The position numbers and the translations under genes are program-made. 64,000 nucleotides of DNA, taken from positions 222,305 to 286,304 of the forward strand of contig CASFQA010000002.1 of assembly GCA_949296775.1 (NCBI GenBank). The letters are read 5' to 3'. The DNA is from an uncultured bacterium (GTDB lineage Bacteria > Bacillota_I > Bacilli_A > RFN20 > CAG-826). Shown in pieces: positions 24,189-37,588 of the stretch (positions are counted from its first letter, which is position 1; each line of letters starts with the position of its first letter). The notes under the pieces are model-generated. The model saw nothing but the letters and a program-made list of their open reading frames with translations, was not told the origin of the DNA and did not search any database.

Positions 24189-25808
24189 TCAATAGATCTC
24201 TTCCACTTCTTGGGAGATTAACCGATCGAATTCCTCAATGGTGGTGACGCCGTCTTTCACTAGCTTCGCCGCCGCTTGCTTAAGCGAGATGAAGGAGGGG
24301 TCGTTGGTGACGATGTCCTTCTCGTAGACGGCGGTTCGCCCGATATAGCCGGTGTGGTTGCAATGCTCGCAGCCGCATTTTTCGTATATTTTCGTGCCGA
24401 CCGGCAAGCCGGTTAAAAGGGATTCGGGCTCATTGACAAGATGCTCTTTCTTGCAATCGGGGCAGAGCTTGCGGACTAATCGCTGGGATATGGCCCCGAT
24501 TAACGAGTCGGCCACGAGGTAGGGTTCCACCCCCATGTCGATAAGTCGGGTGATGGTGGTCACTGCGTCGTTGGTATGGATTGTGGTTAAAACCAGGTGG
24601 CCGGTGATGGCGGCTTGGACGGCGATGTGGGCGCTTTCTTCGTCGCGGATCTCCCCGATCATGATGATGTCGGGGTCTTGGCGGAGGATCGAGCGGAGGG
24701 CGCTCGCGAAGGTCAGCCCCGTCTTGGTGTTGACCTGCAGCTGGTTGACTCCCTCCATCTGGTTCTCGACCGGATCCTCGACCGTTTGGACGTTGACCCC
24801 TGGCCGATTCAGTTCTTTCAAAAACGAATAGAGGGTGGTGGTTTTCCCGGCCCCGGTCGGCCCGGTGCACATTAAGATGCCATGGGGCGAGGAGAGCATC
24901 TCACGGAACATCTTGGCCTCTAAAGGGGTATTGGCCAATTGGTCGATCGAGGTTTCGTCGCCGAGGGTGTTGAAGATCCGGATGACCACCTTTTCGCCGT
25001 AGATATTGGGGAGGGTCGAGATCCGGAAATCGTAGGCATGCTCGTTTAAGGTTCTGGTCAATTTGCCGTCTTGGGGCAACCGGCGTTCGGAGATGTCGAG
25101 GTTGGCGAGGATTTTATAACGGGCGACGACCGCTAAATAAAGGTTGGGGTCGATGTCGCAGTGGTGGAGCAATATCCCATCGATCCGGAAGCGGACCCGG
25201 ACCGATTTCTCCATCGGCTCGATATGGATGTCGCTGGCCCGGGCGTTGACCGCTTCCTGGAGGAGGGTATCGGCCAATAGGACCGATGGGGCGTTGACGT
25301 AATCGTTGAGCGTCAAAGCGGCGGCATTTTCCTGCTTGCCGAATTCTTTGGAGAATTCCTCGTTGGCCTGGTTCCGCCTTTCCTTGCCGGTCAAATTGGA
25401 GATGAGGGAACGGATGCCATCAACGCTGGAAAGGCCAAGCTTAAGGGGGCATTTTAGGAAATAGCTGTATAGTCGCATCTCCTGGGCTTTGAAAGGGGAA
25501 GCGGCGACGCAGAGGACCGATTTGTCGGGGAGTGACCGCCAAGGGATGACCTCGGTTTCCCTGATTAGCGACGGGGGGATGTCCTTGAGCAAGGAATCAT
25601 CGAGGTTATAAACCGAGACGTTGACGAAAGGGAGGTGGAATAAGGCGGCGGTTTTCCGGGCTAAATCGTTTTGATCCAATCGCTTATCATTTTGCAAAGC
25701 ATCCAATAACGAGGAACGGCTTTTATCGGCTTCCTCTTTAGCCCGATTAAGCGCCTCGGCCCCTAGATAGGGGCTAAGCCCGTCATAAACGTATTGATTG
25801 AGTTCCAT
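24189..25808 (-). CDS. pilB: Type IV pilus assembly ATPase, PilB/GspE family
   Basis: This hexameric ATPase powers pilus or pseudopilus extension. The 539-residue protein has an N-terminal MshEN-like domain (about residues 1-150), as in PilB rather than the shorter ComGA, then the ATPase core. Motifs are Walker A GPTGAGKTT, the Asp box, Walker B DIIMIGEIRDEESA with the following AITGHLVLTTIHTNDA His box, and a zinc-binding tetracysteine (CPDC with CGCEHC). It is followed upstream on the same strand by pilC ten bases away. No PilT retraction ATPase is in the window. Confidence 0.94.
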   Translation of the reverse strand: MELNQYVYDGLSPYLGAEALNRAKEEADKSRSSLLDALQNDKRLDQNDLARKTAALFHLPFVNVSVYNLDDSLLKDIPPSLIRETEVIPWRSLPDKSVLCVAASPFKAQEMRLYSYFLKCPLKLGLSSVDGIRSLISNLTGKERRNQANEEFSKEFGKQENAAALTLNDYVNAPSVLLADTLLQEAVNARASDIHIEPMEKSVRVRFRIDGILLHHCDIDPNLYLAVVARYKILANLDISERRLPQDGKLTRTLNEHAYDFRISTLPNIYGEKVVIRIFNTLGDETSIDQLANTPLEAKMFREMLSSPHGILMCTGPTGAGKTTTLYSFLKELNRPGVNVQTVEDPVENQMEGVNQLQVNTKTGLTFASALRSILRQDPDIIMIGEIRDEESAHIAVQAAITGHLVLTTIHTNDAVTTITRLIDMGVEPYLVADSLIGAISQRLVRKLCPDCKKEHLVNEPESLLTGLPVGTKIYEKCGCEHCNHTGYIGRTAVYEKDIVTNDPSFISLKQAAAKLVKDGVTTIEEFDRLISQEVEEIY

Positions 25809-25818
25809 TCGCTTCCTC

Positions 25819-27042
25819 CTATAGCCCGACCCCCTGGTCGATGCTGTTATACATATCGAACATCGGCAGGAACACCGATAGCATGATCAATAAGACCACG
25901 ACCGCCATGACGACGATCATTAGGGGTTCGAGGATTGAGGTGAATTTCTTGATGGCCTGCTTGTTCCGTTCCTCGTAATACTCGGCTAGCACATCGAAAA
26001 CCTGGGGGAGGTTCGAACTCTGCTCCCCGACCGACACCATCTCCAATAGCATCGGGGGAAAGAGGCCGGTGGACTCGAGCGAGCCGGCTAAGCGCCTCCC
26101 GTTATTGACCCCGATGGTCGCGTATTTGAATTTCGATTGGAAATAGGCGTTGCCGACGATGTTCTCGCTCGCCTTCATGCATTCCAATACCGGCAAGCCG
26201 GAGTTGAGCATGATGGCGAAGGAAGAGGCGAAGGAGGAGATGACGGTGGCCCGGATCATCCCTTTGAGGATCGGGGCGTTCCAGGAGAGGGTATTGAAGA
26301 AAAGCTTTCCTTGCTTGGTTTTGCGGAAAAGCCCTAGCAATAGTATGAAGGCGGCGATTCCTCCGAGCAAGAACAGCCAATAGTTGGTGAAGAAATCCGA
26401 GATGGAGATGACCACTTGGGTTATAAGGGGCAATTCGGCCCCGAGCTGTTCGAAGGTCGAGTTGAACTGGGGGATGACGACGTTCATCAGCAAGACGATG
26501 ACGGCAAAGATGACGATGACTAAGAAAAGCGGGTACATGAGTGCGCTTTTGGCATCGTTTTTGGTCTTTTGGGCATTCTGGTAATACTTAGCCGCCTTGC
26601 TAAGGGTTTCGGGCAAGGTCCCGGATAGCTCGCCGACGTAAACCATCGAGCAGAAGAAGTCGGGGAAGATCTTTTTGTGTTTCCGAAGCGCCTCTGACAA
26701 AGGCATGCCGATGAGGACATCCTCATAGGCGTCGGAGATGGCGTTTTTGAAGACGGTGCCGAATTTCTGTTTGCGCAAGGTATCCAGGCATTGGGAGATG
26801 GTGGCCCCGGCTTTGATCATGATGCCGAACTCCTGGCAGAAGGTGACGAATTCACCTGACGATACCCGGCTGGAGACGGCGAAGAAGTTCGAACGGCGTT
26901 TCTCCTTGATCAATTCGAACTCGAGCAAAGAGATGCCTTTGTCGGCGAGATCGGCCTTCAACGCGATCTCGTCGGCGGCGGTGACGTTGTCTTGGACCTT
27001 TTTGCCCGCGGCATTGATCCCTTTGAAATGGAAAATCGGCAT
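25819..27042 (-). CDS. pilC: Type IV pilus inner-membrane platform protein, PilC/GspF family
   Basis: The 407-residue protein has the two repeated T2SSF domains with three membrane helices. It begins with the PilC signature MPIFHFKGINAAGKKV and has FCQEFGIMIKAGATISQCLDTL in the first domain and FASSFAIMLNSGLPVLECM in the second. It forms the membrane platform that PilB turns to add pilins. It is the first gene of a two-gene minus-strand unit and is divergent from the major prepilin gene. Confidence 0.94.
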   Translation of the reverse strand: MPIFHFKGINAAGKKVQDNVTAADEIALKADLADKGISLLEFELIKEKRRSNFFAVSSRVSSGEFVTFCQEFGIMIKAGATISQCLDTLRKQKFGTVFKNAISDAYEDVLIGMPLSEALRKHKKIFPDFFCSMVYVGELSGTLPETLSKAAKYYQNAQKTKNDAKSALMYPLFLVIVIFAVIVLLMNVVIPQFNSTFEQLGAELPLITQVVISISDFFTNYWLFLLGGIAAFILLLGLFRKTKQGKLFFNTLSWNAPILKGMIRATVISSFASSFAIMLNSGLPVLECMKASENIVGNAYFQSKFKYATIGVNNGRRLAGSLESTGLFPPMLLEMVSVGEQSSNLPQVFDVLAEYYEERNKQAIKKFTSILEPLMIVVMAVVVLLIMLSVFLPMFDMYNSIDQGVGL

Positions 27043-27274
27043 AGGAAAGTCGCCCCTTGGGAGGGCTTTTAATAAAGTAAACCTTTTTCAATGAGAAAGG
27101 GAAGCAATATCGCCATCGCGACCGGAAAGGGGAATTTTCGTTGATAGCAGCGAAAGTAATTGAACCAATCGGACATTTTTTCGTGACGTCAACCATCGTT
27201 TTGGCTGGGAACGCTTGTCAAAACGGCAAAGAGAGGGTTATAATCCGACCCATTCCGAGAGAGGAAACACAGAA
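27043..27274. promoter_or_regulatory. Divergent pilus promoter region; plus-strand promoter at 27215-27244
   Basis: On the plus strand TTGTCA (27215-27220) and TATAAT (27239-27244) are separated by 18 bp and point into the first prepilin gene, with a GAGAGAGGA Shine-Dalgarno at 27258-27266. The pilC promoter should lie in the left half, but I see only weak -10 and -35 candidates there. Confidence 0.7.
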
Positions 27275-27802
27275 ATGAAAAATGTCAAGAAAACCCTGAA
27301 CAAAGCGTTCACCCTTATCGAACTAGTCGTCGTCATGGCGGTCATCGCCATTCTCGCCGGCGTCTCGGTCGGCGTTTATTTTGGGGTCATCAACAACGCC
27401 AACCAGTCGGCGGTCGACCAGGAGGCGGCCCAAGCCCGGGATGCGATTTTGCTTGAAACCTCTGGCCTTGGTCATGAAGGCGACGTGGCCGGTCTTGGCT
27501 TGTCAAAAGCGGTTATGAAAAACTCCACCGAGTTGGAATTGACTTTCTCCAGCGACGTTGAATCTTCGGCTGAATTCGACGATCCTGTGGATAATGCTTT
27601 AGAAGCCTTCTACTTGCTCTCCTTGTCTGAGGGTAATTCCGTTACCCTAGACGGCGAGATTTCTTTTAATGCACTGTTTGGAGCTGAATACGATTTAACC
27701 GGGACTGCTGCCGAAGCCAATGGTTCGTATGTGTACACGGTCACTGGTTTTCAATTCCAAAATGGTAATGGCAAAACCGCTGAAATCCATTTTGGTGAAT
27801 AA
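27275..27802 (+). CDS. Type IV prepilin, probable major pilin
   Basis: The 175-residue product carries a class III prepilin leader: a short basic stretch, then KAFTLIELVVVMAVIAILAGV. Cleavage would follow Ala12, leaving N-terminal Phe and Glu at mature position 5. The -1 residue is Ala where Gly is usual. The C-terminal globular domain is small and acidic with no cysteine pair. ATG 27275 is fixed by the Shine-Dalgarno nine bases before it. Its own strong promoter and its position opposite pilBC suggest it is the main subunit. The next gene repeats the same N-terminus. Confidence 0.88.
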   Translation: MKNVKKTLNKAFTLIELVVVMAVIAILAGVSVGVYFGVINNANQSAVDQEAAQARDAILLETSGLGHEGDVAGLGLSKAVMKNSTELELTFSSDVESSAEFDDPVDNALEAFYLLSLSEGNSVTLDGEISFNALFGAEYDLTGTAAEANGSYVYTVTGFQFQNGNGKTAEIHFGE

Positions 27803-27823: not shown

Positions 27824-30049
27824 ATGTTCAATGCATTGAAAAAATATAAGAGGAGCAAAGCTTTTACCCTCATTGAGTTAGTCGTGGTAATGGCGGTTAT
27901 CGCTATTTTAGCCGGTGTATCCGTTGGGGCCTATTTTGGGATTACAAACAATGCCAACGAATCGGCTACCGAGCAGTTTGCTAAGCAAGCTCAGGATCTC
28001 TTCACCATTAAATCCGTCAGTGATAATAAGAAGTATTCCTCGCTTGATGACATGGCGGCCGATTTTATCAGCAATGACCTTGACGAAAATGGCTTAGACA
28101 AAACCCAAGTAAACTATGTGATGCTCGATAAAGGAGAGGGCGAAGCACAAGATGTCCTTTTTGTCTTCAATTCTTCGAAGTGGGTTTGCTCCGTCTATGA
28201 CGGACGGCAGTTCAGCGAACTTTCCGACTACTACTCAAGCTTCGAGGATATGGCTAACGATTTTGCCAAGATGGAAATCCTTGAAGGTTATGATGTTGGT
28301 ACTTTAATCGCCGTTGAGGACAAGGAAGGACTTTTGAATTTCTATCAGTATGGTGATTCCTATCTGCGTAAAGCGATAAAGGTCACTTATTCTGACACTG
28401 ATTACTTTGTTCCCAACGGGCAAACTTTAATCAAAACCGTTTCTTTGGTTCCTGATTTAGCTTCGGTCGCGGATGCTTCGAACGTTTATGAGCGGCAATA
28501 TTACGACGCCAGCAATAAGCCGATCGATGTCAAGAAACGCATTTTTTCCAGTTTCGGGGCGAGTGATAGTTTAAAGATCGACGATTCCTCCGCCTACGTT
28601 TATAACGACTTGAACAACATCACAATAGCTTCTGCGCCCTTAAGTGACGGCGCTTCTTCTTTAAATCTTTCTAGTGGCACCTACCAATTCATGGTTACCG
28701 GTGTGAGCACTGAGAGATACGAATTGTCGCATAATTACTATGCCAAGGACTTTAATGAGTTTAATTCGTTGTTGAATAAGAATGGCAACAACTCCGTGCC
28801 GCATGATATCTATGTTGGGACAAACGCCACGATTGAGAAGAGCCTTTCATTATCGTCTGGATCTTCGATTTATGTTGGATGGAATGTTGCTGATTTAAAA
28901 AAAGGCTTTGTTAGCAACGGAATTAATCCTAACACTCCTAGCAGTGGCGATTGTGTTCCTTCGACTTTGACTATCCCAAGTGGTGTTACCGTTACGATTA
29001 ACGACGGTAACTTTATCGTCAGCTCTTTGGTTTTGGGCCACGATAATGATAATAGTGTCACTAAAAGCACCCTTGTCTTTGATTATTCAGGTAAAGCGGC
29101 TGGCAAGGTAAATGTCGAGGGGAATATTAAAATGGTCTCCTCATATTTGGATGTTAGCGGCAACGTTACCGGCTCGAATTTATCTGAATCCCCTCGCATT
29201 TTCATTGATAAAGATTCGAAAATAAATTGCCTGCTTAATATTTACAATTTTAGCGGCGGACTAAAAACTCTTTCCTTTAAAATCGGCGGAGTTTTCCCTT
29301 TCAACAAGTATGGCATCTTTGCTTTTAATGTTCCTTTAGAAATGGAAGCCGGAGGCGAGTTCCAAGGAACCGCCTACTTGTATATGCTAAGTAAAATCTA
29401 TCCCTTAGATATTGTTCTTGTCGGCGGATCTGAATATGCACAGGGAGAAGCGCCTGTTTTAATAATGAAGTACGGCAAAACTAATATATATTGGGAAAAC
29501 ACTGATATTATTGGCGAAACTCATGATCGTTTGGTATTTAAATTTGCTGGAGACATGGATGATGGGCAATTCAAAAAGTCTGTTTCTTTGGCTTCAATAG
29601 ATTATCAAATCCCATTTCCTTTTTATAACATGGGGATAATTATTTCCGGGTCGGCCAACTTTGATGATATTCAGATGAAAATGCTGCCCGGTTCTTTTGT
29701 TAAAGTCTCAGAAAACACTGATATAACCATCACTAAAAAAGCCATCTTTTATTCTCAATATCAATTTGCTAGCGGCTCATATACCAATTATAACATCGAT
29801 GCAAAAACCCCGGCTGCTTATATAGAATTTCCGGAGAACGGCAAGTATTCATTAAATTTCGATGGCGCAGAGATTGGGGGACTTATTAAGGCCCCGGAAT
29901 CTGAGCCTGTATCGGGATCCGCTATTTCTAGCATCATTAGAACTTACGGCGGAGAGTCTGGCCCAATGTGTTTCAAGGAAGTTCTTAATGGTAGCGCTGG
30001 TGATCCAAAAACCCGCGTTCCTGCCGTTTACCAGATGGTCAGTTTTTGA
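27824..30049 (+). CDS. Giant prepilin-like surface protein (741 aa)
   Basis: Residues 1-45 copy the leader and helix of the preceding pilin (SKAFTLIELVVVMAVIAILAGVS), with Ala13 at -1 and Glu18 at +5. The remaining 690 residues are unlike any standard pilin: a mixed region to about residue 230, then a long stretch rich in Ser, Asn, Ile and Val with repeated short strands, consistent with a beta-solenoid. It could be a tip adhesin carried by the pilus. The latter half is markedly more AT-rich than its neighbours, which suggests a different origin. A good terminator follows. Confidence 0.8.
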   Translation: MFNALKKYKRSKAFTLIELVVVMAVIAILAGVSVGAYFGITNNANESATEQFAKQAQDLFTIKSVSDNKKYSSLDDMAADFISNDLDENGLDKTQVNYVMLDKGEGEAQDVLFVFNSSKWVCSVYDGRQFSELSDYYSSFEDMANDFAKMEILEGYDVGTLIAVEDKEGLLNFYQYGDSYLRKAIKVTYSDTDYFVPNGQTLIKTVSLVPDLASVADASNVYERQYYDASNKPIDVKKRIFSSFGASDSLKIDDSSAYVYNDLNNITIASAPLSDGASSLNLSSGTYQFMVTGVSTERYELSHNYYAKDFNEFNSLLNKNGNNSVPHDIYVGTNATIEKSLSLSSGSSIYVGWNVADLKKGFVSNGINPNTPSSGDCVPSTLTIPSGVTVTINDGNFIVSSLVLGHDNDNSVTKSTLVFDYSGKAAGKVNVEGNIKMVSSYLDVSGNVTGSNLSESPRIFIDKDSKINCLLNIYNFSGGLKTLSFKIGGVFPFNKYGIFAFNVPLEMEAGGEFQGTAYLYMLSKIYPLDIVLVGGSEYAQGEAPVLIMKYGKTNIYWENTDIIGETHDRLVFKFAGDMDDGQFKKSVSLASIDYQIPFPFYNMGIIISGSANFDDIQMKMLPGSFVKVSENTDITITKKAIFYSQYQFASGSYTNYNIDAKTPAAYIEFPENGKYSLNFDGAEIGGLIKAPESEPVSGSAISSIIRTYGGESGPMCFKEVLNGSAGDPKTRVPAVYQMVSF

Positions 30050-30139: not shown

Positions 30140-30592
30140 TTATTGGTTCAGAAACACGCTGAAGCGCAGGACAGGGCTATTCCCAAAGCTGATCGTGTAT
30201 TCAACTACTCTATTCCCGGCATCGAAGGAAGAGGTTAGTCCATATCCATCCTTGCCGTTATATAAGACGGTCCTATTCTCCTCTTCGATTCTCACTAAGT
30301 CATAGGCCTCATTGTCATAGACGTAGTCTTTAGTCGGCGTATTGAATAGAAGGACCTCGTTTTCATTCGTGGCCAGCTCTTGACTGTAGGTCTTACCCGT
30401 CTCGGAATTGGCGTACTCCCTGATCATATAGGCGATATCCGAAGCCACGTCATAGTCCCGGTCCTGCTCGCGAAGCAGGCCATTCATTGAAAGGGAGAAG
30501 TAAAGGAAAGTACCTACCGAGCCGATGATAACCGCGGTCAAAGCCAAGGAGACGACGAGTTCAACGAGGGTAAAGGCCTTCAGCTTCTTCAT
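30140..30592 (-). CDS. Pseudopilin (minor prepilin)
   Basis: The 150-residue protein starts MKKLKAFTLVELVVSLALTAVIIG, a short class III leader with Ala at -1 and Glu at +5. The body is a small globular domain ending in a beta strand-rich segment, like PilW/GspJ or ComGF-type minor pilins. The start at 30592 overlaps the prepilin peptidase stop by four bases (ATGA), which rules out the longer upstream reading. It is the last gene of a seven-gene minus-strand operon. Confidence 0.85.
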   Translation of the reverse strand: MKKLKAFTLVELVVSLALTAVIIGSVGTFLYFSLSMNGLLREQDRDYDVASDIAYMIREYANSETGKTYSQELATNENEVLLFNTPTKDYVYDNEAYDLVRIEEENRTVLYNGKDGYGLTSSFDAGNRVVEYTISFGNSPVLRFSVFLNQ

Positions 30593-31428
30593 AGTCCCAA
30601 CCCTCCGATTAGCCAATCCCTAGCCATCGGGAAAGCCAAACTCATGAACATAACCCCAAGGAAGAGATAGGGGACGAAAGCGAACGGCCCTTTGCTTTGC
30701 TTTCTTAGCTTGATTATCTCGATGATGGCCGCGGAAAGGCAGGCGACGAGCAGGAAGAAGATAAACGAGAAGACGTCATATGCGAACCCTAATCCGATGG
30801 CGATGATGACATCGGCCAAACCGATGGCTTCTTGTTTATAGATCAATTTGGTCAGCAAGAACGACCCGAGGAACAAAAGGGTCGCTAAGGCTAGGGCGAT
30901 AAGGTGCAACGCCCAGTAGGCGGGATTGATAAAGAGATCGGCGATCCCTCTTGCCAATAAGGGCAAAATGATGAGCAGGAGCAAATACGTCGGGACGGTT
31001 TGGGTCTTCTTGTCGATCAAGGCGGCATCGAAAAGGAATAGCAAAACGAAAGAGGTCGCCAATGAATCGACTATCGCCATCGCCTCCTCCGGATAGTGAT
31101 AACCGATCGCCCCATCATAAACGTAGGCGTAGAGGAAGTAAGAGGAAAGGAAGATGGCCATCCCGATTAGCTCGACAAGGGGATAACGCTTGCTGATGGG
31201 GGAATGGCAATAACGGCACCTCCCTTTAAGCGATATAAACGAGAGCAAGGGGATATTGTCATACCACTTCAATTCATGTTGGCAGCTCGGGCAAAAAGAA
31301 CGGGATTTGGATAATAAGGGGATATCGTTTTCTCCGCGATAGACGATGACGTTGGAAAAAGACCCGAGCATCAAGCCGACTAGGGCGAAGATTAGGGGGA
31401 CAAAAACCTCAAAGAACATCTTATCCAA
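30589..31428 (-). CDS. pilD: Prepilin peptidase, A24 family
   Basis: This membrane aspartyl protease removes prepilin leaders and may methylate the new N-terminus. The 279-residue protein has an N-terminal zinc-binding cytoplasmic loop (CPSCQHEL with CRYCHSPI) and about seven helices. The two catalytic aspartates are in FDAALIDKKTQ and in IGLADVIIAIGLG, the conserved GxxD-type motif. It lies between two pseudopilin genes and overlaps both by four to eight bases. Confidence 0.95.
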   Translation of the reverse strand: MDKMFFEVFVPLIFALVGLMLGSFSNVIVYRGENDIPLLSKSRSFCPSCQHELKWYDNIPLLSFISLKGRCRYCHSPISKRYPLVELIGMAIFLSSYFLYAYVYDGAIGYHYPEEAMAIVDSLATSFVLLFLFDAALIDKKTQTVPTYLLLLIILPLLARGIADLFINPAYWALHLIALALATLLFLGSFLLTKLIYKQEAIGLADVIIAIGLGFAYDVFSFIFFLLVACLSAAIIEIIKLRKQSKGPFAFVPYLFLGVMFMSLAFPMARDWLIGGLGL

Positions 31429-31834
31429 GGCTCCTTAAGGATGAGAATTCACCGGCTTGGGCTTTGCCATCGTCGTTACTATCCAGGTAGTCGAATTCGA
31501 AGCGGATGTCCCCGACAGCATAGGCGATGGTGTCTTCTTCGTTCCGGAAGGCCACGGTCCCATCTTCAAGCAAATCCGGATAGGTCAATCCCTCGACGGT
31601 CAATGTCTCATATGGGGTAAACGATTGTTCGCCATAGGCCTGCTCGAGGTAAGCCGCATAGATTTGCTTTCCGGTCGTAAGCCGCTCAATCCGGAGGCTG
31701 GTCCGAGCCAGGGAAGCCGAGCGTTCCCTTGCCTTATAGGTCAAATAGGTTGAAAGTCCGGCTAAGGTCAAGGCGATGATCAAAAGGGTTAAGACGGTAT
31801 AGAGGAGAGTCACCCCTTTAACGGAGCGCTTCAT
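31421..31834 (-). CDS. GspK/PilX-like pseudopilin with EF-hand-like loop
   Basis: The 137-residue product begins MKRSVKGVTLLYTVLTLLIIALTLAG: a prepilin leader with Gly at -1 but Tyr instead of Glu at mature position 5. Loss of Glu5 is the mark of GspK-type tip subunits, which do not need to be docked to an earlier subunit. Near the C-terminus DSNDDGKAQAGEF fits a calcium EF-hand loop (D, N, D, G, E at 1, 3, 5, 6, 12). The start lies inside the end of the PilM-prepilin gene (17-base overlap) and the stop overlaps pilD by eight bases. Confidence 0.75.
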   Translation of the reverse strand: MKRSVKGVTLLYTVLTLLIIALTLAGLSTYLTYKARERSASLARTSLRIERLTTGKQIYAAYLEQAYGEQSFTPYETLTVEGLTYPDLLEDGTVAFRNEEDTIAYAVGDIRFEFDYLDSNDDGKAQAGEFSSLRSLG

Positions 31835-33035
31835 AGACGAGGTTCTCGGCATAGATATGGCCTCCGTCGTAAAGATCGATGATCAGGCTGGTATGGCCCG
31901 TCTCCCCTTGTAGGGCGAATTCTACGGTGAAGAGGGTCCTTTCGCTTTCCTCTTCTTGGGCGAGGAAGCGCCCGTCAGTTAGTTCGACATACCCTTGTTC
32001 TTGGTCGGCCCAACTTGGGTAATTCAAAACGTAGGAAAGATCATCGCTGGATTCGAACCGTTCCCCGATTTCGGTTAGGTAGTCGCTGGCCTGCTGGTTT
32101 TTTAGCGAAGCCCGATTGAGGTTATTCATCCCAATGACCGCCCCGGTCGTGCCGCCGATGGCGATGCCAAGGACGGCTAAGGAGACGACGACCTCAAGCA
32201 AACTGAATCCCTTGGCTTTCTTTTTTAGGGGAAGGAAATCGAAGGCGAAGAGAAGCTTCTTGAGCCTCGAGAAGAAGCGGGGGATCCGGTCGAGGGTGAA
32301 ATGGGGGAGATGGGTGGGGTCATCCTTCTCGATGATTTGCTTCCCTTCTTCGCCGAGATAGACTAAGCAATCGAAGTCGGCTTTGGCGAAGCCGTAAAGC
32401 TGCCTCCCGGCCACTTGGAGGATCTCCGAATATAGGTAGGGCGATTGGGGGACGGTCATGGTGTCGACGAGTTTATGGTCTTTGTAGAAATCGACGACGT
32501 AGAGGTTCCCGTGGGGGCTGATGATGATGGGGTTAGGCTGCGCGATCCCGGTTTCGATCAAAGCCAGGGCTTCTAGTAACGGATAGAAGTTGATGGCTTT
32601 GGTCTTGATGCCCAAAGAGGATAACGCTTCCTTGGCTTTGACGATTCCTTCGTTTCTAGCCATCAAAGCTAAGCAATATAAGCCATCCTGCCCGTAATCG
32701 GCGGTCACGAATTCCAGGTGGACGGTCTCTAGGGCCTCGGGGCCGAGCTTATCGGTCAAGTCTTTCTCCAACAGCTGCTTGGCTTTTCCCCGGCTGACTT
32801 TCGGGAGGACCAAAGAGGAGGAGAAAGAACGGTCGCTTAGGTAAATCAGCTCAAAAACGGTGTTTTTGTTGAGCTGGTTATGGGCTAAGAATTCCCGCAC
32901 CTTGCTCTCGGCCTCCGCCTCGTCTAAGCAGACGGTAAGACTGTCTTTGACATAACCGTCGGCATTGGGGGCGAACAAGGTGATGGAGGCTTGGCCGCCG
33001 GCCTCGACGTATTCGACTTGGGGTTTGCAATTCAT
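31818..33035 (-). CDS. PilM-like domain fused to a type IV prepilin
   Basis: The 405-residue protein has two parts. Residues 1 to about 250 resemble the actin-like PilM/GspL cytoplasmic fold (LVLPKVSRGKAKQLLEKDL, LALMARNEGIVKAKEALSSLGIKTKAINFYPLLEAL, IIISPHGNLYVV). Residues 271-405 are a prepilin: basic KKKAKG, then FSLLEVVVSLAVLGIAIG with Gly276 at -1, Phe277 at +1 and Glu281 at +5, followed by a minor-pilin-like domain. No start codon and no stop lie between them. AAGGAGG precedes the ATG at 33035. The layout mimics GspL (PilM joined to PilN) with a pilin in place of PilN. The PilM assignment is by pattern and moderately sure; the prepilin motif is clear. Confidence 0.75.
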   Translation of the reverse strand: MNCKPQVEYVEAGGQASITLFAPNADGYVKDSLTVCLDEAEAESKVREFLAHNQLNKNTVFELIYLSDRSFSSSLVLPKVSRGKAKQLLEKDLTDKLGPEALETVHLEFVTADYGQDGLYCLALMARNEGIVKAKEALSSLGIKTKAINFYPLLEALALIETGIAQPNPIIISPHGNLYVVDFYKDHKLVDTMTVPQSPYLYSEILQVAGRQLYGFAKADFDCLVYLGEEGKQIIEKDDPTHLPHFTLDRIPRFFSRLKKLLFAFDFLPLKKKAKGFSLLEVVVSLAVLGIAIGGTTGAVIGMNNLNRASLKNQQASDYLTEIGERFESSDDLSYVLNYPSWADQEQGYVELTDGRFLAQEEESERTLFTVEFALQGETGHTSLIIDLYDGGHIYAENLVYEALR

Positions 33036-33048
33036 GTTGTTGTCCTCC

Positions 33049-35232
33049 TTAAGCGCGTTCGCTCAATATCTTTAGCGATGGGTTATCGCCCGGCTGGATC
33101 GAGGAATCGTTTTTGTAGAGGTAGAACCGGAAGGGCGAGGGGCCGATGCAGCCTTCCAAAAGCATGTCGGTGGTGAGGCTCGCGTCTAAGCCGACCGTTA
33201 ACGGGCTGAGCCCCAAATCCTCGGGGGCGAAGTCGGCGCGGGAATTGACCAAGCCGCCGCCATAGTAGGCGATTCCGGTGTTGACGAAGGTAGAATCGGG
33301 GTCGATTTGCCCGTCGACTCGTTCCTTTTCCTCGATAAGGAAGGGGGCGTTCCCCTCCTTCGACAGCTCTCTTACGATAATGGGGATGAGGTCGAAATGC
33401 TCCATCATTTCCAATAAATCCTCGAAGCCGGAGAGGTCATCGTTTATTTGCAGGAAAGCCGAGCTCGAGACGGCGGAAATCAATTTCCAGTCGTAGAAAC
33501 GGGTATCGCCTTCGATCGCTAAGTTGACCCCTTTCGAGGTCCCGCCTAAAGGCAAGGTGCCCATGAAGAGCTGCTCGGTCTCGAATCCGGCGATGGTGGT
33601 GGGATAAAGGAATCTCCCGTCGAAATGGGCCTCGACCCCGATGGAGAAGAAACCGGAATTGGCGAAATAGGTGTCGCTCACCGTGATATTCGTGTCGATC
33701 CGCTCGCCCTCGGGGTAATTCTCGGATGGGGTCGCCTGATGGTTCTGCTCTTTGTAAACGTCGGAGCCGAGCCTGAGGAGATAGTCCCGGCAATTCCGGA
33801 GCAAACAGTTATCGACGACTACGTCTTGGCTCGAGAAGCAGCGGATCCCGTTGCGGGCGTTCTGCAGCAAGGAATTTCTGATCGTGAAACCGTTTACGCC
33901 TTTTATCGAGAGGAGAGTTCCGCCGTATTCGTAATCGGTGACGTAGGGGCGGTTATTGGCCCCAAAGACGGTGAGGTTATCGATCGTGAGGCCGTCGGAA
34001 TGAATCCCCATGACGATGTTGTCTTCCCCATTGACCGTGACCTGGGGCGAATCCCCGGTTAAGGAGACCCCGCAGAAAGAAAGGGGCCCGCGATAGACGT
34101 CTTTTTCGCTTAAGGCGACGATCTCTTGGCCGTTGACGTTGGTCTTTTCCCCGCTTGGGAAGGTCAGGTCATGGAAATTGAGACTATGGCCATTGCCGTA
34201 GATATCCTGATGGATTTTGAGCCCTTCGATGAGGTCGGCGCTTTGCCCGAGTTTTTCGAGGAAGCGGGTATCATAGGTCGATTGGGTCTTGGTGTATTCG
34301 TAATAATAGGGGACTCCATCGAAGGAGCGGGCGAGGTAGAAAGCGTCGTCGCCGAAGGCTTGGAGCTGGTTTTTCTCCCCTTCGGTTAGGGCGAGCGGCT
34401 TAAGGTTTCTTAAAGGGTTGCCTTCGGAATCGAAACACTGATCATAGCTCTCGAGGCTCGTCTGGAGGCAAAGGGGGTTATCCTTTTCGTAATGGTTGGT
34501 TAAATAGGCGAGGTCGCGGTAGGAACGGACATTGATGCCCTCTTCGATGAGGGGGATGGTCAATTCCGTTTCCTCGCCGAGGCTATTCAAGAAGGTGAGG
34601 ACAATGTCCTCGTTCCCTTGGGCCGTGACTTCGTATCGGCTGGTTACCGGATTATAAGCGATGGATGCCAGCCCGCCGGTCACCTTGGCCTCTTGGGCTT
34701 GTTTGGAGGGGATGAGACTCTCGCCTTCGTAGATGGCGGAAGAGAAATCGAAGACCGAGATCTCGATCTTCGCGTCGACTAATTCGAGCCCTTCGCTTAG
34801 GTCATAACGGCCATAGAGGCAGTCATCGCTGATGCCGGATAAGGACGAGCCGAGGTCTAAGGCGTAAAGGCCGGAGGAATCCTCATCGACCACATAGACC
34901 GGGATCTTGTCGATCAGGGTCCCGTTTTTGTAGGAGGCGGTCAAGATGGTGGCGCCTTCCTTTATCCCGGCTAAGGCATGGCCCTCGATCTCGACTAATT
35001 CGGGATCGTCCACCTCATAGACGATGTCTTCCTGCCATTTGTCCTCGCTTGGGGTGGTAAAGCAAGGGATGGTGCTTGTATGCCCAATTTGGACGAATTC
35101 AACCGGGTTGGCGAAACTGATCCTCGAGGGATCGTCGATTAGGTTCCCAATGGCGATGTAATTGGCGGTGAACAATAACCCCAATAGCAACACCGGGAGA
35201 AGGAGAATGACCGAAAGCAGTTTCTTGTTCAT
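33049..35232 (-). CDS. Membrane-anchored beta-helix protein with Big-like domain
   Basis: The 727-residue protein has an N-terminal membrane anchor (residues 5-28), an Ig-like Big_2-type domain at about 35-120 (EIEGHALAGIKEGATILTASY) and a right-handed parallel beta-helix at about 330-560 (NIVMGIHSDGLTIDNLTVFG, GFTIRNSLLQNARNGIRCFSS, VVVDNCLLRNCRDYLL). Beta-helices of this type bind or cleave polysaccharides, but no catalytic motif is evident. It overlaps the ABC permease gene by four bases and lies 13 bases before the PilM-prepilin gene, so it belongs to the pilus operon. It may be an exported partner of the pilus or of the ABC system. Confidence 0.75.
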   Translation of the reverse strand: MNKKLLSVILLLPVLLLGLLFTANYIAIGNLIDDPSRISFANPVEFVQIGHTSTIPCFTTPSEDKWQEDIVYEVDDPELVEIEGHALAGIKEGATILTASYKNGTLIDKIPVYVVDEDSSGLYALDLGSSLSGISDDCLYGRYDLSEGLELVDAKIEISVFDFSSAIYEGESLIPSKQAQEAKVTGGLASIAYNPVTSRYEVTAQGNEDIVLTFLNSLGEETELTIPLIEEGINVRSYRDLAYLTNHYEKDNPLCLQTSLESYDQCFDSEGNPLRNLKPLALTEGEKNQLQAFGDDAFYLARSFDGVPYYYEYTKTQSTYDTRFLEKLGQSADLIEGLKIHQDIYGNGHSLNFHDLTFPSGEKTNVNGQEIVALSEKDVYRGPLSFCGVSLTGDSPQVTVNGEDNIVMGIHSDGLTIDNLTVFGANNRPYVTDYEYGGTLLSIKGVNGFTIRNSLLQNARNGIRCFSSQDVVVDNCLLRNCRDYLLRLGSDVYKEQNHQATPSENYPEGERIDTNITVSDTYFANSGFFSIGVEAHFDGRFLYPTTIAGFETEQLFMGTLPLGGTSKGVNLAIEGDTRFYDWKLISAVSSSAFLQINDDLSGFEDLLEMMEHFDLIPIIVRELSKEGNAPFLIEEKERVDGQIDPDSTFVNTGIAYYGGGLVNSRADFAPEDLGLSPLTVGLDASLTTDMLLEGCIGPSPFRFYLYKNDSSIQPGDNPSLKILSERA

Positions 35233-36869
35233 CGGATGAGTCCCCCGTTGGTTTCGATGGTCTTGATGAAGGCGTTCCGGTCGTTTCGATAGCCGAACCA
35301 GGCAAGGAGGAAAAGGAGGAAGAACAACCCCGGCTCGATAAAGAGCCGTCCCGGCGTTTTAAGGTCGGGCCAGAACATGAGCAAGAGAAGGTCGAGCAAG
35401 AGGTAGAGAATCGAAAAGACCACGATGGACAAAGGGTTATAGCCATTGCCTCGCCTGCCGCTTAAAGCCCGGAGGTCATTGGCTTTGCCGAAAAGGAAAG
35501 CGGTGCTTGATAGGAAGAAGGCGACGAGGAGGAAATTAAGGGTGTCGGTTAAGCCCAATAGATTGGAAGCGAGCAAGACGGCGGCGGAGAGGACGAGTGC
35601 GAGGACCAAGGACAAATAGCCGAGCAGCAATTTGGCGTTCAATTGCTTCCTCATCGACTTCGGCAGGGACAGCAATACCTTGAAAGACTGACTCTCAAGG
35701 GCGAAATAGGGGGTGCTGGAATAAAAGCATAGGGGGATGAAGAGGAAAAGAAGGGCCTCGATAAGGGGGACGACGAGTTCCGGCATGCTCGACAAGAGAC
35801 GGTCAAGCAGAAAGTTGCCGGTCGCGGGGAAGGAAAGGGCGTTGAGCCCCAGCGAATCGAAAACCGAGGAGAGCAAATAGGCGAAGAAGTAGGCGAATAA
35901 GGGGATGAGGACCATTAACGACAAATAGGAGAAGACGAGGTTCCCGCCCCGGCTGGTCCGGATGAATTCCTTCCCGGCATAAGTCCTTGCCAAAGATGAG
36001 GACTTCCGTTTGCCCGGCTGCTCATCGGTTTCCGCCCGGAGGCAAACTCGGACGAAGTAGGGCAACAGGGCGATCCCCAGCAGGAAAAGAGTTATCCCCG
36101 GGAGGAAAGAAGCCAGGTCGAACCGCCAGAGGCTCAACTGAATGAAAGCCGAGGTCGGGATCAAAAAGCGAGCGGTATCGGAGAGGATCCCCATGGCCTG
36201 GACGTTTAGGATACTCGAGACCTGATTGGCCGAGACGAGTGAGGCGGCGTAGCGGACGAAGAGGAAATAGACGGTCCCGATGGCCCCGGAAAGGAGGATG
36301 ACGGCGACGACCTCTGCCAAAAGATGGCCGCGGAAGAAACCGCCGATCGCCTTGGCCGGATAGGCGAGCAAGACGGCGAGGAAAGCCACGAAGAAGGAAA
36401 GGAAGAGGCTTGAAAGGAAGGAGAGGAAATAGAAAGGCAAAGCCACCCCGTTGATGATCCCGTAAGCCAAGAAGAAGCCATAGGCCAAAAGGCAATAATC
36501 GCCGACGGCTTTGACTAGAAGCGCCCCGAGTTTGGCGGCGAATAGCTTATGGAAGGGGATCGGCAAGGGGTTGATCAGCTTCCTTTCGCCCTTGTCGAAA
36601 AGCAATTCGCCGGCTTTGGGGGAGAGGGCGACCCCATAGCAAATGGTGATGGCGAAAAGGGCGATCGAAAGGAAGCTGGCGTCGGCATAGGCGAAGATCC
36701 CTTCCTCGTTCCCCCGGATGGAGTGGACTTTAAGCAGCAAGACGGAGAAGACGGCGGAAAGGAAGGCGACGATTAGCAAATTCAGCAGGAAAGAGAGCCA
36801 ATCGTAACGGCCGGTTTTCCACCTTCCGGCGAGACGAAGGAGGTCTTTTTTAATCAAAGAGGCGATCAT
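35229..36869 (-). CDS. ABC transporter permease (ABC-2-like exporter)
   Basis: The 546-residue protein has about 12 hydrophobic helices in two blocks separated by a charged linker (ETDEQPGKRKSSSLART). There is no substrate-binding domain and no extracytoplasmic MacB-like domain, so it looks like an exporter permease of the ABC-2 type. The start overlaps the ATPase stop (ATGA) and the stop overlaps the beta-helix gene start. Substrate unknown; the operon suggests a surface polymer, lipid or peptide connected with the beta-helix protein or pilus. Confidence 0.8.
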   Translation of the reverse strand: MIASLIKKDLLRLAGRWKTGRYDWLSFLLNLLIVAFLSAVFSVLLLKVHSIRGNEEGIFAYADASFLSIALFAITICYGVALSPKAGELLFDKGERKLINPLPIPFHKLFAAKLGALLVKAVGDYCLLAYGFFLAYGIINGVALPFYFLSFLSSLFLSFFVAFLAVLLAYPAKAIGGFFRGHLLAEVVAVILLSGAIGTVYFLFVRYAASLVSANQVSSILNVQAMGILSDTARFLIPTSAFIQLSLWRFDLASFLPGITLFLLGIALLPYFVRVCLRAETDEQPGKRKSSSLARTYAGKEFIRTSRGGNLVFSYLSLMVLIPLFAYFFAYLLSSVFDSLGLNALSFPATGNFLLDRLLSSMPELVVPLIEALLFLFIPLCFYSSTPYFALESQSFKVLLSLPKSMRKQLNAKLLLGYLSLVLALVLSAAVLLASNLLGLTDTLNFLLVAFFLSSTAFLFGKANDLRALSGRRGNGYNPLSIVVFSILYLLLDLLLLMFWPDLKTPGRLFIEPGLFFLLFLLAWFGYRNDRNAFIKTIETNGGLIR

Positions 36870-37570
36870 TGGGCGTTGAAGAAACGGACTAAGTCCTGAT
36901 GGAAATCCCGGTTGTGGGGGATATCGTGGTACATCTTGACGATCTGCTTCCCGTCGAGATGGGCGACGTCGGTGCAGATCCGTTCCGCCTGGAAGAGATC
37001 GTGGATGGTGAGAATGACCGTCCCCCCTCTGGCGGCCACCTCCTTGAATAACGAGACCAAGGTCTCCGAAGCCGCGGGATCGAGCCCGAGCAATGGCTCA
37101 TCGAGGAACCAGATCTCTGGGCGGTGGATGTAGGAGGCGATGAGGGCGGCCTTCTGCTTGGTCCCCCGGGAGTATTCCTCGATCGGCATGTCCAGGAAGC
37201 GGGTGAAGTTGAATTGCTTCGCCGCCCCTTCGCTAAGCCCAGCGATCGCGGTTTTGGATAAGCCATAGGAGGAAGCGATGAAGGTGATGAATTCCCTGCC
37301 GGTCATATAGTCGAAGCAGGAGCAGTCATCCGGGGTATAGGCGATGGCCTTTTTATAGCCCACGAGGTCCTCGGCGATGTCCTTCCCTCGGTAATAGATG
37401 TTCCCCCGATCGGGCTTAAGGACGGTGGTCAGGCAATTGAGCAAGGTGGTCTTGCCTTCGCCGTTGCTCCCGACGATGCCGACGATTTGGCCTTCATCGG
37501 CTTGGAAATCCAAATCATCGAGGATGGTTTTCCCATCGAAGGATTTGGAGAGGGCTCTAACTTTTAACAT
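36866..37570 (-). CDS. ABC transporter ATP-binding protein
   Basis: The 234-residue ATPase has Walker A GSNGEGKTT, a Q-loop in AYTPDDCS, the signature EYSRGTKQKAALIAS (a YSRG variant of LSGGQ common in ABC-2 exporters), Walker B IWFLDEPLLGLDP and the H-loop His in LTIHDL. ATG 37570 is preferred to the in-frame GTG at 37588 because a TAAAAT lies at 37584-37579, between the two codons. This would make the message nearly leaderless. It is the first gene of the seven-gene operon ending at the pseudopilin. Confidence 0.9.
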   Translation of the reverse strand: MLKVRALSKSFDGKTILDDLDFQADEGQIVGIVGSNGEGKTTLLNCLTTVLKPDRGNIYYRGKDIAEDLVGYKKAIAYTPDDCSCFDYMTGREFITFIASSYGLSKTAIAGLSEGAAKQFNFTRFLDMPIEEYSRGTKQKAALIASYIHRPEIWFLDEPLLGLDPAASETLVSLFKEVAARGGTVILTIHDLFQAERICTDVAHLDGKQIVKMYHDIPHNRDFHQDLVRFFNAQ

Positions 37571-37584
37571 CGTGGTGGATTTTA
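37570..37584 (-). promoter_or_regulatory. -10 element just before the ABC ATPase start
   Basis: TAAAAT (37584-37579, minus strand) sits inside a GGTGG/CCACC inverted repeat and nine bases before the ATG, with no Shine-Dalgarno. It would give a leaderless or near-leaderless transcript for the pilus-ABC operon. An overlapping TATAAA about ten bases upstream is an alternative. Confidence 0.4.
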
Positions 37585-37588
37585 CCAC

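Follow-up and report, generated by a model that had tools for sequence, protein, structure and literature searches.

PulL/GspL of type II secretion systems is a fusion of PilM with PilN (PMC10191384), and the initial annotation of the locus described here had rightly named PilN as the partner to which PilM is otherwise known to be joined. Type IVa pili gained PilM, PilN and PilO, whereas Com pili are without them (PMC10191384). In class III signals the leader is cytoplasmic and the pilin body outside, with PilD cutting on the cytoplasmic side, and prepilin leaders of 6-26 amino acids have been reported, with about 15-30 residues for type IVb (PMC4471445). Domains grafted onto the pilin are a feature of modular pilins (PMC10191384). 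Analysis of a 64,000-nucleotide stretch of DNA from an uncultured bacterium (the window; its genome is termed G000) revealed a gene in which a domain predicted to be PilM/GspL-like is continued in the same frame by a type IV minor pilin. The literature searched, with incomplete coverage, contained no case of a PilM-pilin fusion, of a prepilin with an N-terminal domain, of such a long leader or of polyprotein processing. The fusion is a variant of the known type IV pilus machine without precedent in that literature. To call it a new assembly design, as had been done, is too strong, because the operon is unchanged in relatives with two genes, and cleavage of the fusion may do no more than restore the two usual proteins.

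The fusion gene and its pilus locus

The fusion gene is part of a type IV pilus locus that also encodes PilB, PilC and PilD (Table 1). It had been described as one gene without a start or stop between its parts, and this description holds: the sequence reads as a single frame of 405 amino acids from an ATG, internal stops are absent, its own Shine-Dalgarno sequence lies 8 nt before the ATG, and homologues occur in three further genomes. The GspK-like gene overlaps the fusion gene by 35 nt. In PilD, the catalytic residues Asp139 and Asp206 are invariant among the three relatives aligned; at the second of them PilD has GLAD where GxGD is usual, and G057 has GLGD. The product of the gene following pilD is probably of the J type, judged by position and resemblance. 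PilB carries an MshEN domain, the kind of N-terminal domain expected to meet PilM/GspL.

Table 1. Features of the pilus locus in the window, with two sets of features from other genomes at the end. A slash marks the predicted cut in prepilin motifs.
Feature	Position	Strand	Basis
Extension ATPase PilB with N-terminal MshEN domain	24189..25808	-	T2SSE E 4e-120, MshEN 2.3e-5
Platform protein PilC	25819..27042	-	T2SSF E 1.3e-62
Pilin (KA/FTLIELVVVM)	27215..27802	+	N_methyl E 4.5e-7
Large pilin, 741 aa (KA/FTLIELVVVM)	27824..30049	+	N_methyl E 1.1e-7
GspJ/PilW-like minor pilin	30140..30616	-	N_methyl E 1.4e-5
Prepilin peptidase PilD	30589..31428	-	Pfam A24_N_bact E 2.4e-29, Peptidase_A24 4e-8
GspK-like minor pilin without Glu5 (SVKG/VTLLY)	31421..31852	-	Open reading frame, no Pfam match; conserved beside the fusion
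PilM-like::minor pilin fusion gene, 405 aa	31818..33035	-	Open frame, ATG, Shine-Dalgarno; full-length homologues in G028, G057, G154
Residues 277-405, GspI/PilV/ComGE-type minor pilin	31821..32207	-	AF2 helix, weak PilV and ComGE matches, operon position
Prepilin peptidase site KKKAKG/FSLLE	32193..32225	-	Pfam N_methyl over cut-off; kept in 4/4 fusions
Residues 238-276, linker (39 residues), low confidence, basic end KKKAKG	32208..32324	-	AF2
Residues 1-237, predicted PilM/GspL-like actin-fold (ASKHA) domain	32325..33035	-	AF2 model; Foldseek ranks PilM first, then EpsL/GspL and FtsA
Shine-Dalgarno AAGGAGG of the fusion gene	33044..33050	-	Read from sequence
Beta-helix protein directly upstream of the fusion gene	33049..35232	-	Beta_helix 6.5e-4; similar gene in type IV pilus loci of G028, G057
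Acidic/PEPE-linker membrane protein	L051:1107-2615, L050:1839-3110, L049 (7625-8119 -), L070:6662-7876, L071:7165-8313, L073:6793-7938
Out-of-frame overlap loci	L049:9651-11140, L070:4336-5831, L071:4835-6330, L073:4523-6018

Both halves of the fusion are under purifying selection between G000 and its congener G028, with dN of 0.22 and 0.36 and dS of about 1.8. In the same comparison, low synonymous divergence around the junction (codons ~230-290) was the lowest window among eight genes and was followed up as a candidate signal. After correction for amino-acid make-up and window number, however, 389 of 1000 simulations were as low, and the dip was dismissed as not significant. An 81-aa antisense frame across the junction was also discarded, with no evidence found in its support. 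Searches of viral, plasmid and genome-contig sequences with the fusion itself as query gave no relatives.

Several other genes recur around the fused-type locus. In G000, G028 and G057 it is accompanied by genes for an ABC ATPase, a permease and a beta-helix protein (window 33049-37588; L036:2202-6723; L037:13829-18410), which in two of the three stand immediately upstream of the fusion gene. These loci also encode very large pilins of 741, 970 and 446 aa (window 27824-30049; L036:10367-13279; L037:5651-6991) with class III motifs and repeat-like bodies, adjoined by a normal-sized pilin in G000 and G028. In G057, a 1096-aa membrane-anchored protein with BspA-type leucine-rich repeats is encoded directly after the pilus genes (L037:10406-13696), and its N-terminal region resembles the local pilin body.

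The PilM-like and pilin halves

The PilM assignment had been made by pattern, for a domain of 250 residues. This stretch is better described as residues 1-237 plus a linker of 39 residues. Pfam and NCBIfam are silent on residues 1-237, and the separately encoded relatives are likewise without a PilM_2 or TIGR01175 match. The assignment finds its support in predicted fold and in a sequence bridge. The AF2 model of residues 1-276, built from a three-sequence alignment, has a pLDDT of 62 and a pTM of 0.55 with a weak second half, and the full-length model is of low confidence (pLDDT 52). Foldseek comparison of residues 1-276 against the PDB placed P. aeruginosa PilM first (5eox, E 8.8e-11), and the full-length model again retrieved PilM structures first (E 1.6e-10). 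GspL cytoplasmic domains and FtsA rank next; the top matches include V. cholerae EpsL (1yf5) and Thermus PilM (2ych) with FtsA close after, and further V. vulnificus GspL and a pullulanase-system homologue. The TM-scores of 0.34-0.42 against PilM, and 0.25-0.48 overall, are low and therefore support the fold class, not the exact structure. In topology the model corresponds to an actin-like fold with a 1C insertion of the PilM/FtsA type: a block of three strands and one helix stands at either end, and the elements between these blocks run strand-helix-strand-strand-helix-strand.

The sequence bridge is a match of the family profile to a G379 gene (E 3.4e-7) that precedes genes matching PilN and T2SSM (pilO-like) and is itself above the Pfam PilM_2 cut-off. 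As the profile also picks up FtsA (in G168), this bridge is supportive, not proof. Profile-profile alignment by hhalign was collinear but weak, with a probability of 9% against PilM and 30% against FtsA, and 0.04% for the control. PDB sequence searches with the family profiles found nothing relevant. As to nucleotide binding, inspection by eye did not reveal a DIG-type motif where it would be expected in the fused copies; G087 has one. Taken as modelled, these data support a PilM/GspL-like actin-fold domain in residues 1-237. Some further candidates were set aside as FtsA. The weak profile match in G168 lies beside FtsZ, that in G489 (L010) is an FtsA-like gene, and the Pfam PilM_2 matches in 170 of 279 genomes of the order, considered as a second PilM, proved to be FtsA in the two that were read (G000 and G057).

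The pilin half opens with a complete class III prepilin site, KKKAKG/FSLLEVVVSL, which predicts cleavage of the Gly276-Phe277 bond and puts Glu281 at +5, just as had been read earlier. Its N_methyl match at residues 271-296 is the sole Pfam match of the fusion protein (E 4.8e-7, 29.5 bits against a cut-off of 21.2). The cut-site residues of the four known fusions are G/FSLLE, G/FSLIE, A/YTMME and G/FSIIE, so Gly or Ala at -1, an aromatic residue at +1 and Glu at +5 are kept in all of them; Ala at -1 is normal in other pilins of the same organisms. The low-confidence AF2 model shows a long alpha1 helix (279-330) followed by a small beta body. Among curated families, PilV (24.9 bits, in G028) and ComGE (18-20 bits) both stay below cut-off, and the place of the pilin half is within a minor pilin set of J-like, I-like and Glu5-less K-like members. 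Upstream of the cut, a predicted helix at residues 254-267 of the linker would form the C-terminal end of the leader. This leader comprises 276 residues with a folded domain, whereas a short hydrophilic one is expected for a class III prepilin.

The pilin could also be made alone from an internal start, with the fusion partly a read-through product. An in-frame ATG in G057 would indeed give a normal 8-residue leader, and in G000 a GTG at residue 208 stands behind GGAG. However, the leader from this GTG would have 69 residues, with no in-frame ATG, GTG or TTG between it and the cut site; the nearest in-frame starts of G000, G028 and G154 leave leaders of 43-69 residues, and no start candidate is conserved in all four fusions. 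We consider a separate internal start very unlikely.

Fused and separate states in related genomes

The same domain order, for which a search of related genomes had been advised, occurs in four separately assembled genomes across two families. The G028 fusion is 69% identical to that of G000, G154 (same family, other genus) has a fusion of 456 aa, and that of G057 (a Bacilli MAG from another family of the order) is 26% identical over the whole length; the downstream neighbours in G028 and G057 are the same as in G000. An assembly or sequencing error had been considered, to be recognised by separate genes in relatives. All genomes are drafts and such two-gene relatives do exist, but clean in-frame linkers in four separate assemblies from two families exclude this explanation, and its probability is negligible. 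Nor can chance account for the frame, given the full-length fused homologues.

A PilD search found this type of locus in 12 of 273 genomes of the order. As the contig of G001 ends just past pilD, it was left out of the count, and 4 of the 11 readable loci are fused and 7 separate. In the relatives, the PilM-like and pilin halves are adjoining and often overlapping genes. In G002, G026, G027 and G113, a PilM-like gene of ~371 aa and the pilin gene after it share about 46-52 nt in different frames. A programmed frameshift was considered here and is not needed, because the pilin has a TTG start and a GGAGG of its own, located within the pilM-like gene. The end of that gene (KERRxDWxKF...KKKA) thus encodes the Shine-Dalgarno sequence, start and leader of the next pilin. 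In G044, G087 and G170 the two genes abut, lie slightly apart or overlap slightly. The separate PilM-like protein is without a predicted transmembrane segment and stands beside a normal prepilin in G002, G026, G027, G113, G044 and G087, and by reading it also has no such segment in G170; in G418, G595 and G338 it has transmembrane segments of its own. The gene order across the class is J-like pilin, pilM-like gene, I-like pilin and, in most cases, a K-like pilin without Glu5; on contigs that extend far enough, pilD usually comes next. G000 and G028 differ in having the J-like gene after pilD.

In the PilD tree, the four fused loci and G170 form one clade (99/97), within which the fused G154 and the separate G170 are sisters (100/100). 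A single origin of the fusion, seen in a first PilD tree without G170, was abandoned once G170 had been added, since sisters in different states imply that the state changed at least twice. The tree of the domain is in agreement, although the clade is less well supported there (88/89). Therefore, the fusion either arose twice, or arose once and was undone in G170. The joining of two neighbouring genes of one operon is the best explanation of the fused gene, and the sisters show that the fused and separate states interchange.

Proposed processing of the fusion and comparison with known systems

We propose that, on balance, PilD probably cuts after Gly276 and gives the two normal products that two genes would give. 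The fusion would insert like any prepilin, with the pilin helix in the membrane and the N-terminal domain in the cytoplasm, and by class III topology the PilM-like domain would then sit where PilM belongs. Cleavage by PilD, encoded two genes downstream, would release two products, the matured minor pilin, destined for the tip complex, and the PilM-like domain of 276 residues, which may dock on the assembly ATPase and platform, PilB/PilC. The two parts would be made 1:1 and in the same place, and equal dosage may be the benefit. Cleavage is favoured because the fusions, although widely diverged, all retain the cut site and Glu5, and because close relatives have free versions of the domain. In addition, PilD is encoded in the same operon with both catalytic Asp residues present, and an uncut anchor should need no conserved residues at -1, +1 and +5. 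The interchange of states between G154 and G170, the MshEN domain of PilB and the purifying selection on both halves also speak for this reading. Against it, a cut after a folded domain of 276 residues is undocumented in the literature searched.

If PilD cuts only partly or not at all, the pilin helix would be a permanent anchor and the fusion a GspL-like platform protein with the pilin as its periplasmic part. The transmembrane anchors of the domain in G418, G595 and G338 suggest that membrane attachment may be useful, the PilM half of GspL is likewise tethered through its fusion to PilN (PMC10191384), and PilN/PilO to anchor the domain were not found in G000. However, none of the four fusions has lost the cut site or Glu5, versions without a predicted anchor occur in seven relatives of the order, and an unmatured GspI-type subunit would probably be lost from the tip complex. 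We regard a permanent tether, the main rival to cleavage, as somewhat unlikely.

The fusion operon holds no PilN or PilO gene, and the Pfam models PilN (PF05137) and PilO (PF04350) found nothing at E<=1 in G000, where divergent ones could be missed. As these models are not very sensitive in control genomes, the absence of PilN/PilO from G000 is likely, not proven. Several separate-gene pilus loci are flanked by a gene for a membrane protein that has an acidic or PEPE-rich linker and a domain of ~130 residues common to these proteins; a search of the window and the fused-type loci did not find it, and it could be a stand-in partner for PilN. In a 502-aa pilus-locus protein (L051:1107-2615), the C-terminal region matches ribosomal protein L15/L18e (PF00828, E 1.4e-13).

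That a natural fusion has been retained by several lineages, while a sister has two genes, suggests that the I-type tip minor pilin is where the PilM-like protein acts, which bears on the role of PilM-type proteins with minor pilins at pilus initiation. The uncut fusion might bring this pilin to PilB/PilC through the PilM-like domain, with PilD cleavage then licensing filament growth. GspI, J and K-type minor pilins initiate assembly (PMC10191384), the PilM-like gene adjoins the I-type pilin across the class, and fusion forces co-localisation, but separate-gene relatives manage without it, and such a timed cut is decidedly improbable. As a working intermediate, the uncut fusion would deliver the initial subunit of the tip to the ATPase, and cleavage would mature the pilin and free the platform protein, tying filament initiation to processing; this we regard as unlikely. 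Should PilD cut the fusion, as we favour, the prepilin peptidase would tolerate a folded protein as leader, and the leader peptide of a pilin would be a folded 276-residue machine part, a motor-docking protein.

Similar to GspL/PulL/EpsL of type II secretion, the fusion joins a compact PilM-like actin-fold cytoplasmic domain, apparently without a nucleotide site, to a membrane-spanning partner. Here, however, a minor pilin that carries a prepilin peptidase site takes the place of PilN, and a GspM/PilO partner was not found. PilM of type IVa pili is the top structural match and, like the domain in most relatives, is encoded by a separate gene in a pilus locus with pilB, pilC and pilD; unlike it, the present domain falls below Pfam/NCBIfam detection of PilM and lies between minor pilin genes, with PilN/PilO not found. 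With GspI/PilV/ComGE minor pilins the pilin half shares the class III motif with Glu5 and, in relatives, the place between J-like and K-like genes, and it departs from them in its long, folded leader. The modular pilins PilB and PilC of Streptococcus sanguinis also have an extra domain grafted on the pilin. In known modular pilins the grafted module lies on the exposed face, whereas here the extra domain precedes the cut site and would be on the cytoplasmic side. Finally, the locus resembles the Com pilus of monoderms in being a Gram-positive-type pilus with IJK-like minor pilins, and differs from it in that PilM is absent from Com pili (PMC10191384). By keeping a PilM-like protein without detectable PilN/PilO, these pilus systems of Bacilli stand between the Com type, which has no PilM, and the T4a type with PilMNO.
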